Made by a program: the position numbers and the translations under genes. This document shows positions 15,706 through 33,754 of a stretch of DNA of 64,000 nucleotides, one piece after another. The notes under the pieces were generated by a model. That model worked only from the letters and a program-made list of their open reading frames with translations, was not told the origin of the DNA and did not search any database. Position 1 is the stretch's first letter, and each line of letters begins with the position of its first letter. This DNA is from an uncultured Clostridia bacterium (GTDB lineage: Bacteria; Bacillota; Clostridia; Christensenellales; UBA3700), in contig CAMQSU010000001.1 of NCBI GenBank assembly GCA_947037025.1, positions 1 to 64,000 of the forward strand, written 5' to 3'.

Positions 15706-16503
15706 ATGAAAAAGAGGATTTTAGGAATTATAGCAGTTGCGGCTGTTGCGGTAATATCAATGGTAAGTTTGGTAGCTTGCGGGCCAAAGCTAAGCGACTG
15801 GAATTATATAGAAAATAAAGGCGAGATGGTAATAGGATATACAAATTATGCACCGCTTGCAAATGTAGTAGATGGCGAGCTAGTAGATGGTTTTGATATT
15901 GATCTTGCAAAGGCAGTGGGCGAAAAGTTAGGCATTGATGTTAAATTTAAGAGAATTCAATGGAATGACAAAATCATATCACTTAAAGCTAGAAACATTG
16001 ATGTAATATGGAATGGGATGACAATCACAGCTGATTTAAAAGAGAGCATTAATATCAGCGCGCCATACTTAACAAATAGTCAAGCACTAATAGTACCAGT
16101 AGCAAATGCAGATTGGTCGAAGAGTGATTTAGTAGGCAAAAAGATCGGTGCAGAGTCAGGCAGTGCAGGACAAGAAGCGGTAGAAACTGATTTTGCGGAT
16201 AGCACATATGTGGGTAAAGAGTCACAAGTAGATGTATTCACAGAGCTATTAGGCGGAACGGTAAGTGCGGGAATAGTAGATGCACTACTTGCAGCGGAAA
16301 TGCTTGCAGGATCTACTTATAAGGGTAAGTTCGTAGTATCAAATAATTTTACTTTTGATAGCGAAAATTTTGGAATAGGATTTAGAAAAGGTGATGACGT
16401 ATTAATGAAGAAAGTTGAGGATGCGCTTGCTGAGCTAAAAGCTGACGGAACGGTTAACACAATCGCAGTTAAATACGGAGTGCAAGGTTTAATACCGGCA
16501 TAA
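15706..16503 (+). CDS. amino-acid ABC transporter substrate-binding lipoprotein
   Basis: 265 residues. The start at 15706 has AAGGAGCG upstream. A lipoprotein signal peptide ends at 'SLVAC', so the mature protein is lipid-anchored outside the membrane. It has the canonical polar amino-acid binding protein order: 'GFDIDLAKAVGEKLG', 'NGMTITADLKESINISAPY', 'KKIGAESGSAGQ', and last 'SENFGIGFRKGDDVLMKKVED'. It delivers a polar amino acid to the permease and ATPase encoded next. The specific substrate is unknown. It serves as an in-window reference topology for the permuted paralogue at 30927. Confidence 0.93.
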   Translation: MKKRILGIIAVAAVAVISMVSLVACGPKLSDWNYIENKGEMVIGYTNYAPLANVVDGELVDGFDIDLAKAVGEKLGIDVKFKRIQWNDKIISLKARNIDVIWNGMTITADLKESINISAPYLTNSQALIVPVANADWSKSDLVGKKIGAESGSAGQEAVETDFADSTYVGKESQVDVFTELLGGTVSAGIVDALLAAEMLAGSTYKGKFVVSNNFTFDSENFGIGFRKGDDVLMKKVEDALAELKADGTVNTIAVKYGVQGLIPA

Positions 16504-17335: not shown

Positions 17336-18445
17336 ATGAAAGCATTAGAAGTAAACAGTATAAATAAATATTTTGGCTCAAATCACGTGCTAAAAGATGT
17401 AACATTCTCTATGGAAAAAGGCGAAGTATTAGCAATAATCGGCTCATCAGGCGGAGGCAAAACAACGCTACTACGCAGCCTAACATTTTTAGAGCGTATC
17501 CAAAAAGGAAGCATAAAAATCAGCGGCGAGATAATAGTTGCGGAAGTTGAATGCTTAGAAAAACCAAAGAAATATATAGTGCAAGAGTGGGAAAGAAAGG
17601 AAAAAAAATCTGATTGCAATTGCGATAGTGAATGCAGCTTAAAAGAAGCAAAATCTGATAATGCAACTGCATTAAATAGTGATTTAAACACAGCTGAAAA
17701 TAGCGAAATGATTAGCAAAAAATGCAGTGATATAAACAGCGAAAGCGGTGCAGATAACGCCGCAAAAAGTTGCAAAATTTGCAATAAAATAAAGTCAATA
17801 TGCAGCTTTAAGCTAAAGAAAATAGTCAAAAATCCTATCACTGAGAGTGTCGCGACAACAAAAAGCACATATCCAAATGATGACGAATTAAGACTAAAAA
17901 GGCTGAAAATGGGGCTAGTTTTCCAAGATTTCAACCTATTTCCACACAAAACAGTAATAGAAAACTTGATTCTTGCACCAATGCTTATCAAAAAGGACGT
18001 AAAGGACGAGAATGGAGTTGTAATATGCAATGAGAGTATGCCTGAGGATAAAGCACGCGAGCTTGCAATGCAAATCCTTGAAAAAGTTGGACTAAGTGAT
18101 AAAGCGGACTCGTATCCATGTGACATTTCAGGCGGACAAAAACAGCGAGTTGCAATTGCAAGAGCGCTGTGTATGAGTCCGGATATTTTGTGTTTTGATG
18201 AGCCAACATCAGCACTTGATCCAGAGCTTACTGGCGAGGTGCTAAAGGTCATAAGCAGTTTAAGAGATTCAGGAGTTACAATGCTTATTGTTACGCATGA
18301 AATCATGTTTGCAAGAGAAGTTGCGGATACAGTGATATTTTTAGATGGCGGACGAATTGTCGAGATGGGCGAGGCGAAAAGTGTAATAGATAACCCGCAA
18401 GAGCCAAGAACAATAGAGTTTATGGATAAGATTTTAAAAGCGTAA
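17336..18445 (+). CDS. polar amino-acid ABC transporter ATPase with a 115-residue Cys-rich insertion
   Basis: 369 residues against about 240-250 for the family. Walker A is 'GSSGGGKTT' (about residues 36-44), Q-loop 'VFQDFNLFPH' (Q197), signature 'ISGGQKQR' and Walker B '[14 protein letters not shown]', with the H-loop in 'IVTHE'. Between strand 'SGEIIV' and the Q-loop lies an extra segment (about 68-185), Lys/Asn/Ser-rich with eight cysteines including CNC and CKIC. All catalytic motifs are intact, so it should power the importer. The insertion is probably a surface extension of unknown role. Twelve nt separate it from the permease gene. Confidence 0.93.
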   Translation: MKALEVNSINKYFGSNHVLKDVTFSMEKGEVLAIIGSSGGGKTTLLRSLTFLERIQKGSIKISGEIIVAEVECLEKPKKYIVQEWERKEKKSDCNCDSECSLKEAKSDNATALNSDLNTAENSEMISKKCSDINSESGADNAAKSCKICNKIKSICSFKLKKIVKNPITESVATTKSTYPNDDELRLKRLKMGLVFQDFNLFPHKTVIENLILAPMLIKKDVKDENGVVICNESMPEDKARELAMQILEKVGLSDKADSYPCDISGGQKQRVAIARALCMSPDILCFDEPTSALDPELTGEVLKVISSLRDSGVTMLIVTHEIMFAREVADTVIFLDGGRIVEMGEAKSVIDNPQEPRTIEFMDKILKA

Positions 18446-28596: not shown

Positions 28597-30450
28597 TTGC
28601 AATTCAGATATAACAGTAGAGATTTATCACACAAAAACCCTTTCGGAGCGGTCGAGGCAGGTAGCACTGTAAGCATATCAATCACGGCCAGAGATGGCTT
28701 GTTTGTGCATGCAGTGAGCATAATTGTGTCAAAAGATGATGGAGAGGAATACTATATCCCAATGCCATTTGAATGCAAAAATGGCGAGTGGAGCAAGTTT
28801 AGTGGAGAGGTATTTCTAGATACAGCAGGATTATATTGGTACAGGTTCTCCGTTTTAACAGAGCACGGAGAGATAATTCTATCGCGTGGAGCGGATAACA
28901 ATATCAGCACTAATGGCGAAAGCTATCAACTTACCGTCTATGACAAAAATTATGTAACGCCTGATCATATGAAAGGCGGTGTAATTTATCATGTATTTGT
29001 AGATAGATTTAACCGTGGCACGGATAAAGATGCAATTTGGAATAAAACGGGAGTACTCAAGAATTGGAGCGATGCGGTTACAATCGTAGATAGCGACGGA
29101 GTTTTCAGGGCGAACGATTTTTACGGCGGCAATTTAGAGGGTATAACGGAAAAACTTCCATACTTTAAGGAGTTAGGAGTAACGTTGTTATATCTATCGC
29201 CAATTTTCAAGTCAGGCTCTAACCACAGATACGACACAGGCGACTACATGATGATTGATGAACTTCTTGGCAGCGAAAAGTCATTCAAAAGACTGATTGA
29301 TCAAGCAAAAGCAGTCGGGATCGGTGTAATGTTAGATGGAGTATTCAATCACACAGGCAGTGACAGCTTGTACTTTAATAAGCTAGGAACATACCCAGAA
29401 GTTGGCGCATATGGTGGCAAAACTTCTAAATATTATAAGTGGTTCAACTTTTCAAAATTCCCTAACGAATATAATTGTTGGTGGGGAATCACAGTAACGC
29501 CAACGGTCAACAAATCAAATGCAGGATACCGCAAGTTTATACTTGGCGAAGGCGGAGTAATTGACAAGTGGACAAAGTTAGGACTTGCAGGCTGGAGATT
29601 AGATGTTGTTGATGAATTAGATATCAAGCTAGTTACAGAAATCCGCAACTCTAGCAAAAGAGTGGACAAGAATGTTGCAGTAATAGGAGAGGTATGGGAG
29701 GACGCATCGTCAAAGATAGCGTACAGTGAGAGACGCCCATATTTACTAGGAAAGCAATTAGATGGCGTTATGAATTATCCATATAAGGAAGCGATAATCA
29801 AGTTTGCAAGAGACAACAATGCGGAGGATTTCATATCACGGACAATGACGATATATGAAAATTATCCACTGCAAGCACTTAATTGTTGCATGACGTTTTT
29901 AGGAACGCATGACACAGTGAGGGCAATCAATAGTCTAGCAGATAGAGATATTTCACATACAAGCAAAGCGGATAGATTGCATATTGACCTAACTGCTGAC
30001 GAGCGAAACCTTGCAAAGCATAGGTTAAAGGTCGCAACAGTATTGCAATATATGCTTCCGGGCGTGCCGTCAATTTATTATGGTGACGAGATAGGACTTG
30101 AAGGATATGAAGACCCTATCAACAGAAAGCCATTCCCGTGGGACAACATGGATGAAGAATTGCGAGCACATTATAGCAATCTAGGCGAAATGCGAAAATC
30201 TTGCAGAAACTCAATGAGCGGAAAAATGCAAGTATGGACGCAAGACGGCGCATTGCATATTGTAAGAGAAGGCAGTGAGCAAAAAACTCATGCAATAGTT
30301 AACAATTCTTTCAATGTAGCTAGCGTATGCGGATTATCGGGCGTTGATTTGCTAACTAGCAAAACAATCACACCAGATAGCAGCGTGAATTCCGGCGAGT
30401 ACATTATTGTAATAGAAAGCAGCAAAGGCAAAACGCAAAACAAAAAGTAA
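28597..30450 (+). CDS. GH13 alpha-amylase family enzyme (neopullulanase/cyclomaltodextrinase-like)
   Basis: 617 residues. An N-terminal Ig-like beta domain (about 1-110) precedes the (beta/alpha)8 barrel. Conserved regions are 'DGVFNHTG', 'GWRLDVVDEL' (nucleophile Asp), 'VIGEVWEDA' (acid/base Glu) and 'FLGTHDTVRA' (transition-state Asp). 'PGVPSIYYGDEIGLEGYEDP' follows. There is no signal peptide, so it should act on imported malto-oligosaccharides. The start is TTG at 28597, chosen because TAGGAGGC lies five nt upstream and no ATG is nearby. It is the third gene of the carbohydrate cluster. Confidence 0.94.
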   Translation: MQFRYNSRDLSHKNPFGAVEAGSTVSISITARDGLFVHAVSIIVSKDDGEEYYIPMPFECKNGEWSKFSGEVFLDTAGLYWYRFSVLTEHGEIILSRGADNNISTNGESYQLTVYDKNYVTPDHMKGGVIYHVFVDRFNRGTDKDAIWNKTGVLKNWSDAVTIVDSDGVFRANDFYGGNLEGITEKLPYFKELGVTLLYLSPIFKSGSNHRYDTGDYMMIDELLGSEKSFKRLIDQAKAVGIGVMLDGVFNHTGSDSLYFNKLGTYPEVGAYGGKTSKYYKWFNFSKFPNEYNCWWGITVTPTVNKSNAGYRKFILGEGGVIDKWTKLGLAGWRLDVVDELDIKLVTEIRNSSKRVDKNVAVIGEVWEDASSKIAYSERRPYLLGKQLDGVMNYPYKEAIIKFARDNNAEDFISRTMTIYENYPLQALNCCMTFLGTHDTVRAINSLADRDISHTSKADRLHIDLTADERNLAKHRLKVATVLQYMLPGVPSIYYGDEIGLEGYEDPINRKPFPWDNMDEELRAHYSNLGEMRKSCRNSMSGKMQVWTQDGALHIVREGSEQKTHAIVNNSFNVASVCGLSGVDLLTSKTITPDSSVNSGEYIIVIESSKGKTQNKK

Positions 30451-30926: not shown

Positions 30927-31775
30927 ATGAAAAAGAAATTAATAATCGGAATGGCTGTAGCTTTAGTAATGAGCATATCAGTAGTAGCACTAGTAGGATG
31001 CGGACCAAAAATAACTGACCCAGTTGCAAACCAAATCACAAACGCAACTGAAGAGAGCTTTGCATTTGCAGTTAAACGAGGCAATGTAGATATGCTAACA
31101 AAGCTAAATGATTTTTTCGCATTAGAGTCAACAACAGCAGCAATTGATGTATCTATGGCGTACCATAGTGGATCATCGGAAACAACAATCGAATATCCTG
31201 ATCTTAGCGACAACACTGGAGTACAGATCAAGATGATAACTGAAGCCGGATTTGCTCCATACGAGTATGTTAAAAATACTGGTGCAGGATCAGTAAACGG
31301 TGTTGCAGGACTTGATGTAGATCTTATGATAATGTTTGCAGAGAAATATAATTACACTCTAAAAGTTGAGAACGGTACTTTTGCTGCAGTTATTCCTACA
31401 GTAGATAAAGACAATTTAAGCATTGCAGCAGCAGGCATGACAGTTACTGATGAAAGAAAAGAAAAAGTTGATTTTGCAACACCATATGTTAAATCAATCC
31501 AGTACATTATATCATCTAAGTCAACAGGCAACTACAAGACTATTGCAGAGCTTAAAGGACTAGAAGTTGGCGTGCAAACTGGCGCGACAGGTCACCTTAT
31601 GATGAAAGATGCAGTTGGAAAAACTGATAAAGGCGTTGAAGGCGAGTTATATGGCACTAAGACAGTAATAAATAACACTGAAAAAATTATGAATGTATAT
31701 CAAGACTTTTTGAATGGAAACATTGACGCAATCATAATTGATAAATTTGTAGCATTAAACCTTATTAAAGGATAA
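30927..31775 (+). CDS. amino-acid ABC transporter substrate-binding lipoprotein, apparently circularly permuted
   Basis: 282 residues with lipobox 'ALVGC' (Cys25). The core is standard: 'FAPYEYV', 'VAGLDVDLMIMFAEKY', 'AAAGMTVTDERKEKVDFATPY', 'LKGLEVGVQTGATGH', 'GNIDAIIIDKFVALNL'. The protein ends right there at residue 282. The closing segment normally found after it (EeyaiAVkKGN.eLL.kiN..L) is instead at residues 42-65 as 'EESFAFAVKRGNVDMLTKLN', just after the signal peptide. The first and last strands are joined through residues about 66-100. The fold should still bind a polar amino acid. It heads an operon with permease and ATPase. Confidence 0.9.
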   Translation: MKKKLIIGMAVALVMSISVVALVGCGPKITDPVANQITNATEESFAFAVKRGNVDMLTKLNDFFALESTTAAIDVSMAYHSGSSETTIEYPDLSDNTGVQIKMITEAGFAPYEYVKNTGAGSVNGVAGLDVDLMIMFAEKYNYTLKVENGTFAAVIPTVDKDNLSIAAAGMTVTDERKEKVDFATPYVKSIQYIISSKSTGNYKTIAELKGLEVGVQTGATGHLMMKDAVGKTDKGVEGELYGTKTVINNTEKIMNVYQDFLNGNIDAIIIDKFVALNLIKG

Positions 31776-31806: not shown

Positions 31807-32517
31807 ATGAATAACACAGTACTTTTGTCAAGCTTTATGGATTCGTTCAATAAAGTATTTATAGAAGACGATAGATGGAAATCATACCTTGAGGGCATGG
31901 CAGTTACGATTGCCGTGTCCATCTTGGCGATTATAATAGGAGTTGCAATTGGATTAACTGTTGCTATCGTTAAAAACATAAATTTAAACACAGGCAAGCT
32001 AAAAATCCTGAATAAAATCGGCGATTTTTACGTAACAGTAATTAGAGGAATACCAGTAATGGTTCAGCTGTTGTTCATGTATTTTGTAGTGCTTTTTGCA
32101 TTTGATTATAAAATCATAACAGGAGCGATAGTATTTGGTATTAACAGCGGCGCATATGTTGCGGAAATTTTCCGTGGCGGCATCATGTCGATTGATAAAG
32201 GCCAGATGGAAGCGGGCAGATCACTAGGACTTAGTTACGGCAAAACAATGTCAAAAGTAATAGTACCGCAAGCGATGAAAAATGCAATTCCGCCACTTGG
32301 TAACGAGTTTATAGCACTTATCAAGGAGACTGCAATTATTGGTACTATAGGAATAGTTGATATTACTAAAGCAGCAGATGATATTAGGTCGGTAACTTAT
32401 GAGTTTTTCTTGCCATTAGCGGCAGCAGCACTTATGTATCTTGTCATTGTAATGACACTTACAAAGGTTATGAAAATAGTAGAGAGGAGGCTAGGAAAGA
32501 GTGATACGCGTAGTTGA
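31807..32517 (+). CDS. polar amino-acid ABC transporter permease
   Basis: 236 residues, about five membrane segments. '[15 protein letters not shown]', '[15 protein letters not shown]' and the EAA loop '[21 protein letters not shown]' place it in the HisM/GlnP group. A cytoplasmic N-terminal extension of about 28 residues precedes the first helix. AGGAG lies seven nt upstream. The gene overlaps the following ATPase by 17 nt. Confidence 0.94.
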
Positions 32518-33754
32518 TTTACACAAGCACTTTGGTGCATTAAAAGTCCTTAACGGGATAGATATTAACATAGAAAAAGGCGAAAAAGTTGCAGTAATAG
32601 GGCCATCAGGCTCAGGAAAATCAACTTTTTTAAGATGTATTAACCTACTAGAGCAGCCTACTGCTGGTCAAATATTCTTTGAAGAAAAAGAGATAACTTA
32701 TTATCAACCACTAAATAAGCTTGGGCTTATAATTGCTGATAAAAAAATACCTCGCCTAAACAAAACAGCGGATAAATATAAAGCAAAGCTAGATATTTTA
32801 GAGGCAAAATTAAGCGAAATAAAAATGACTAATACAAGTATTCCATCACCGGAAATCGGCGAGGGGAATGATAGTCAAAATGATGCAACAGCTGTTGATA
32901 CATCTAGTATTTTAGACAAGCAAGTTATTCGTACAAACAAAAAGATAGCAGCTGTAAAGTCAAAGATGATAGCCGCTACTGTTGAAAGCGAAAGTATACA
33001 AAAGCGTATGGAAATTAACGATAGTGTACTAGGCAAGCCAAAGGTAAAAATCAATGATATAAGGAAAAACATGGGCATGGTATTCCAGCACTTTAACCTT
33101 TTTCCGCATATGACAGTGCTTGATAACATCATCGCAGCGCCAACTGAAAGTCTTAATTATGAAGTGAAAAAAATCATTGCAGATAGTGATTTAACTAAAG
33201 ATTTCATGACAATAGAAAAGCCAATTTTGCAGACAAAAAAAGCCCCTGAAGGGCTTGCAAAAGCGGAGTATTCTATCGCAAATAAAGAGTATTTGCAAGT
33301 AAAAGCTGAGTATGATGCTAAAGTCAAAATCATGGCAACGAAAACAAAAGCGAAGTTGCATGCAAAGATTAAACCGCACGCATTACAGCTACTTGAGCGA
33401 ATAGGACTAACGGAGAAAGCCTTATCATATCCTAACACATTATCAGGCGGACAAAAGCAACGTATCGCAATAATAAGAGCGCTTGCAATGCGACCTGATG
33501 TAATGCTATTTGATGAGCCAACATCAGCGCTTGATCCGGAAATGGTCGGCGAAGTATTAGACCTAATCAAGCAGCTAGCAGAGGAAGGAATGACGATGAT
33601 AATTGTCACTCACGAAATGAACTTTGCAAAAGAAGTAGCAACAAGAGTACTGTTTATGGACGGCGGACTTATAATGGAGGAGAACACTCCACAAGAGTTA
33701 TTCGGCGCGCCAAAGAATGAAAGACTGAAAACATTCTTATCTAAAGTTTTATAA
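32501..33754 (+). CDS. polar amino-acid ABC transporter ATPase with two large insertions
   Basis: 417 residues against about 245 for the family. Walker A is 'GPSGSGKST', Q-loop '[10 protein letters not shown]' (Q196), signature 'LSGGQKQR', Walker B '[14 protein letters not shown]' and the H-loop 'IVTHEM'. Insertion 1 (about 66-185, Lys/Ser-rich, partly coiled-coil) sits immediately before the Q-loop. This is the same place as in the ATPase at 17336, but the sequence differs and there are no cysteines. Insertion 2 (about 217-290) lies in the helical subdomain before 'LLERIGL'. The start is GTG at 32501 with GAGGAGG ten nt upstream. Catalytic motifs are intact. Confidence 0.93.

Follow-up and report, generated by a model that had tools for sequence, protein, structure and literature searches.

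The gene at 30927-31775 on the forward strand of the window, by which we mean the whole 64,000-nucleotide stretch of DNA analysed, encodes what we take, with a probability of roughly 0.88, to be a truly circularly permuted family-3 substrate-binding protein (SBP) that serves a polar-amino-acid ABC importer as its lipid-anchored amino-acid-binding subunit, and one product of repeated rotations within its class that likely came about via tandem duplication. What was observed is the rotation and its conservation, the operon around the gene, the use of several cut points and the existence of more than one origin; that the protein binds and delivers an amino acid, where its tether sits and the route by duplication are inferred. 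The initial annotation had read this single protein as circularly permuted, a reading that holds on sequence, genomic and model evidence, and the phenomenon is wider in scope, permuted forms being widespread in the class, cut at several points and of more than one origin.

Segment order of the permuted protein

Segment profiles were built solely from canonical proteins, with N1 covering lobe 1 up to hinge 1, L2 covering lobe 2, and C1 covering hinge 2 and the remainder of lobe 1. By these profiles the window protein has the order C1-N1-L2, and the canonical order N1-L2-C1 is not met.

30927-31775, + strand: ORF of the family-3 SBP lipoprotein, 282 aa, Cys25 lipobox
30927..30998, + strand: signal peptide, residues 1-24 (MKKKLII...ALVG, followed by the lipobox Cys), read from the sequence
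30999..31001, + strand: lipobox Cys25, the lipid-anchored mature N-terminus as predicted from sequence
31020..31166, + strand: segment C1, residues ~32-80, the hinge-2 strand and the canonical C-terminal lobe-1 segment, here N-terminal
31167..31220, + strand: linker from the old C-terminus to the old N-terminus, residues ~81-98, between the C1 and N1 matches
31221..31523, + strand: segment N1, the canonical N-terminal part of lobe 1 up to hinge 1, residues ~99-199 (N1 profile, 92.8 bits)
31524..31772, + strand: segment L2, lobe 2, ending just past the helix that follows the ligand-site Asp (L2 profile, 41.1 bits)

The assignment of C1 in this protein is based on a profile match of 17.0 bits together with the rotation scan, null test and AF2 secondary structure given below. 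That a C-terminal-type segment lies right behind lipobox Cys25, as had been proposed, is borne out by the segment profiles. The motif reported there, EESFAFAVKRGNVDMLTKLN, is indeed present, but it occupies residues 42-61 and not 42-65, and the full homologous segment, which takes in the hinge-2 strand, spans residues ~32-80. The chain terminates at IDAIIIDKFVALNLIKG, as was read in the ORF, and this new C-terminus corresponds to cut B, at position 173/183 of the 234-position family profile. The protein passes the gathering score of SBP_bac_3 (PF00497) with 69.9 bits against a cut-off of 26.4; the match starts at residue 101, and Pfam sees only a partial family-3 SBP. Some caution is in order here, as domain profiles read permuted SBPs as two broken halves.

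The lipobox Cys is invariant in 48 aligned cut-B proteins, the sequences having been trimmed at that Cys. The binding-site pattern of T-x-x-R, G-x-T-G and an Asp before the C-terminal helix is retained, and R153 and D248 (mature chain) are invariant across 48 permuted proteins. From knowledge of the family we take these two residues, the Arg after the T-x-x motif and the Asp of lobe 2, to be the holders of the alpha-amino-acid moiety. With the fold and ligand-site residues kept, amino-acid binding and the usual delivery to the permease would be expected, although there are no binding data and both remain inferences. In the proposed rearrangement the last part of lobe 1, from the second hinge strand on, would have moved to the N-terminus, where a linker connects it to the old N-terminus, and the new termini would be found where lobe 2 ends, next to the second hinge. 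The membrane tether is inferred to run from the hinge/lobe-2 side and not from lobe 1.

Support for the rotated order

Each rotation of the mature chain was scored against a full-length profile made from canonical proteins only. The window protein scored 161.8 bits in its native order, covering positions 4-172 of 231, and 186.1 bits when rotated to start at mature residue 71, covering positions 4-229. Rotation gained 0-1.4 bits in canonical proteins and 22-101 bits in other permuted relatives. A gain of 22.6 bits was matched by none of 2000 shuffles of the N-terminal segment, the shuffle maximum being 18.6, and a chance motif is excluded by the scan and the shuffles together. The incomplete native coverage also answers one objection raised in advance, namely that the core might be complete without the N-terminal segment. 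The other, an error at the 3' end of the gene masking a normal C-terminus, did not materialize either: a search of all six frames 3' of the gene found no C1 fragment, and because no C1-like stretch lies elsewhere around the gene in any frame, no normal C-terminus can be concealed by a frameshift. Across the window, C1 matches rise above noise in its two SBP genes alone. Assembly artefact is likewise excluded, since orthologues occur in many assemblies, including the one-contig genomes G594, G622 and G741.

Taken alone, the C1 match is weak (17 bits), and one shuffle gained 18.6 bits. This modest score would be compatible with gene decay, in which the C-terminus was lost and the N-terminal resemblance is accidental. 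However, the orthologue in G002, from the same genus, is 69% identical with the same order over its full length, the observed gain was never attained by shuffling, more than 100 relatives have a rotated order with strong scores, and the operon is intact, so that decay can be dismissed for practical purposes.

Predicted structure

Structure prediction, which had been suggested as a check on the permutation, gave a confident fold for the window protein with AF2 (pLDDT 88.5, pTM 0.86, with 48 permuted sequences as input). Block means in the N-terminal segment are 86-98, and its strands and helices are ordered as expected for C1, from E8-12 to H43-56 of the mature chain. A relative with cut A was modelled with pLDDT 95.4 and pTM 0.89. 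In Foldseek, 185 columns of amino-acid-binding proteins of ~225 residues were aligned with the window model at 2.2-2.3 Å, and the part of the target left unmatched is about the size of C1; Foldseek is sequential, so the permuted parts are not superposed. The cut-A model gave mostly poor, lobe-swapped matches. Where the N-terminal segment lies in space, as modelled, is judged from the profile, the secondary structure and the prediction confidence, there being no experimental structure.

The same segment might instead complete lobe 1 of a neighbouring molecule or of another SBP domain, with a dimer as the functional form. Such a domain swap is possible in principle for permuted and tandem SBP domains, and the tandem arrays described below can be parsed in two ways. 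The AF2 monomer models are confident, however (the monomer being the only state modelled), and the former termini are joined by linkers of about 10-30 residues, and we regard a swap as improbable.

Relation to known binding proteins

The circularly permuted protein shares with SBP_bac_3 members (PF00497; GlnH/ArtJ/HisJ type; structural Type II) the sequence family, the lobes, the ligand-site residues, its character as a lipoprotein, and an operon with permease and ATPase. It differs from them in being rotated, with termini at lobe 2/hinge and not at lobe 1, and with profile matches that fall into two swapped stretches. A permuted ABC binding protein was already known in TpMglB-2 (Tp0684) of Treponema pallidum, described as a 'Type Ic' circularly permuted sugar-binding protein, whose authors likewise raised a link to membrane anchoring (PMC4990184). 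Both cases are natural circular permutations of a tethered ABC binding protein, but TpMglB-2 has a Type I/cluster B sugar-binding fold, one described cut point and a fourth crossover, whereas the family-3 SBPs differ in fold type, are cut at several points and were permuted repeatedly. Measured against Type Ic/cluster Bc, the window protein has the permuted order (by rotation scan and shuffles) and lacks the Type I sugar-binding fold, its matches being family-3 amino-acid-binding proteins. GlnPQ-type fused transporters with tandem SBD1-SBD2 (6h30) also have tandem family-3 domains fused to a permease, and 6h30 is the only PDB entry among the best matches whose match spans the junction; their domains are canonical, whereas the arrays found here open with L2-C1 and have N1 as the last segment ahead of the permease. 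Neither an experimental structure nor a curated family representing the permuted form turned up in PDB, Pfam or NCBIfam, and no report of permuted family-3 SBPs, or of such recurrence, was found in the open-licence literature. On that basis permutation in family-3 SBPs appears to be new, and its recurrence is the surprising part.

Operon and syntenic loci

The SBP gene belongs to an ABC import operon, with permease and ATPase genes downstream.

31807..32517, + strand: amino-acid ABC permease (BPD_transp_1), the next gene in the operon (Pfam, 2.9e-25)
32501..33754, + strand: ABC ATPase whose Walker A motif and Q-loop are separated by a large insert (Pfam matches ABC_tran in two stretches)

The window, G002 and G001 have common neighbours at this locus, an amylase-type gene upstream and permease, ATPase and AMP-ligase-type genes downstream. 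The SBP between them is permuted in the window and G002 and canonical in G001, and since the neighbours are shared, both orders are present at one syntenic locus of one genus. The upstream gene in the window (28597-30450) is of amylase/neopullulanase type and lies 5' of the SBP operon, a place kept in G000, G001 and G002.

A second SBP locus in the window goes one step further.

15706..16503, + strand: second window SBP, canonical N1-L2-C1 (ORF from 15673, ATG at 15706)
L144 2449-3384, - strand: its orthologue in G001, whose C-terminus carries strand 1 of lobe 1 (cut C)

The segment profiles agree with the earlier description of this paralogue as normally ordered. Its syntenic orthologues have cut A3 in G002 and cut C in G001, so that one gene has three orders in three congeneric species. 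Permease and ATPase are in the same order in all three, and in G002 a nearby gene is 96% identical. The cut-C protein gained 10.6 bits on rotation, only with a paralogue-specific profile. In both window ATPases, at 17336-18445 and 32501-33754 (369 and 417 aa in total), a large charged insert separates Walker A from the Q-loop; its length varies, given that the ATPase ORFs of related loci measure between about 298 and 435 aa.

Cut points and number of origins

Cut positions were mapped on the 234-position family profile, and at least five were found, four of the five within lobe 2.

Cut A1: native termini at about 96/100
Cut A2: native termini at about 111/113
Cut A3: native termini at about 128/136
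Cut B: native termini at about 176/177 (window pair, 173/183)
Cut C: between strand 1 and helix 1 of lobe 1 (second SBP of G001, strand 1 C-terminal)

A scan with the family profile revealed no further hidden rotation above 4 bits among canonical-type proteins. Judging from what is known of the fold, the four lobe-2 cuts presumably shift the lipid anchor from lobe 1 to lobe 2/hinge.

Trees were built from chains rotated to canonical order, the careful tree having 60 rows; the groups tested for origins were partly chosen after the first tree had been viewed. The 60-row tree requires at least 12 order changes, and well-supported branches alone force at least four changes for cut A and at least three for cut B. 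A single origin of all permuted forms was rejected, with AU p=0.0004 for one clade of all permuted rows, as was one clade of all cut-B rows (AU p=0.0001). At least two origins are firmly required because canonical and permuted proteins of paralogue 2 fall together in a single 100/100 clade, and four permuted lineages are likely. The window pair is placed among canonical proteins with support 97/92, so the tree favours, without forcing, an origin apart from the main permuted clade; one clade of the two is not rejected (AU p=0.21). This last result leaves some room for one ancient permutation behind all single-domain forms outside paralogue 2, the nested canonical proteins then being gene replacements or reversions. 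The grouping of all permuted rows without paralogue 2 as one clade has AU p=0.033, however, the cut-B rows do not hold together, and two origins or more are needed in any event; we consider a single ancient event unlikely, without discarding it.

On the most far-reaching reading, family-3 SBPs of this class would undergo rotation again and again, in some four lineages and with five or more cut points, with proteins that were permuted before being permuted anew, and with the three orders at one locus in three congeneric species. Permutation would then recur because an anchor on lobe 2 or next to the hinge alters opening or docking and is selected, but this reading is offered only tentatively and we would not presently favour it.

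Route of permutation

Several permuted SBP domains are fused to a permease. The order L2-C1-N1-permease is found in L234, L236, L239 and L252, and C1-N1-L2-permease in L201, and there are phase-shifted arrays of the form SP-L2-C1-(N1-L2-C1)n-N1-permease with n=0, 1 and 2 (n=1 in L247, L248, L249 and L251; n=2 in L250, 1013 aa).

L250 752-3790, - strand: fused transporter with up to three domain equivalents
L239 2133-3743, + strand: permuted SBP domain fused to the permease right behind hinge 1, likewise in L234, L236 and L252

The hinge-1 junction of the L239 type is close to the point of channel insertion in ionotropic glutamate receptors.

The inferred, likely route to the single-domain permuted proteins is tandem duplication of the SBP domain, after which the first copy would have lost its front, behind the signal peptide, and the last copy its back. 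Doubly trimmed tandem repeats are a prediction of the permutation-by-duplication model (PMC3320104), and the phase-shifted arrays resemble its intermediates. They illustrate the kind and not the ancestor: the arrays form their own clade, and a direct descent of the single-domain proteins from them is unsupported. Fission into two genes followed by re-fusion in the other order, without tandem duplication, would yield an identical final order, and both routes are recognised (PMC3320104). Against fission, no SBP halves in separate genes came to notice in the loci examined, though no systematic search was made, and phase-shifted tandem arrays do exist; we think it a rather unlikely route.

Most of the natural circular permutations on record are ancient and separate distantly related proteins. 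The present case is a living series within one family: sister species have canonical and rotated versions of a gene at one locus, the cuts fall at several positions, and there are tandem arrays of the type in the duplication model. With it, the route that natural permutation takes, how fast it proceeds and how well it is tolerated become directly testable. The series also offers ready-made permuted amino-acid binders for sensor design.

Distribution of permuted forms

Whole genomes were searched with a profile of the junction region (C1-linker-N1; A1). A strong junction-spanning match was found in 24 of 46 species of the window's family, and in 66 of 396 genomes of the order sample (E<=1e-41). 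The search for homologues that had been suggested alongside the structure prediction found the permuted order widespread in the class, where 58 of 391 sampled genomes, one-contig genomes among them, encode permuted forms (E<=1e-36). In the phylum sample of 398 genomes there were no matches outside the own class at E<=1e-38; all came from the few own-class members that it contained. A permease gene lies on the same strand within 2.5 kb for 113 of 118 distinct permuted proteins (56 of 58 with cut B, 57 of 60 with cut A). One permuted SBP without a nearby permease, from Lachnospiraceae (L044 3662-4459, + strand), lies directly behind a membrane-GGDEF-like gene and could be a sensor rather than part of a transporter.
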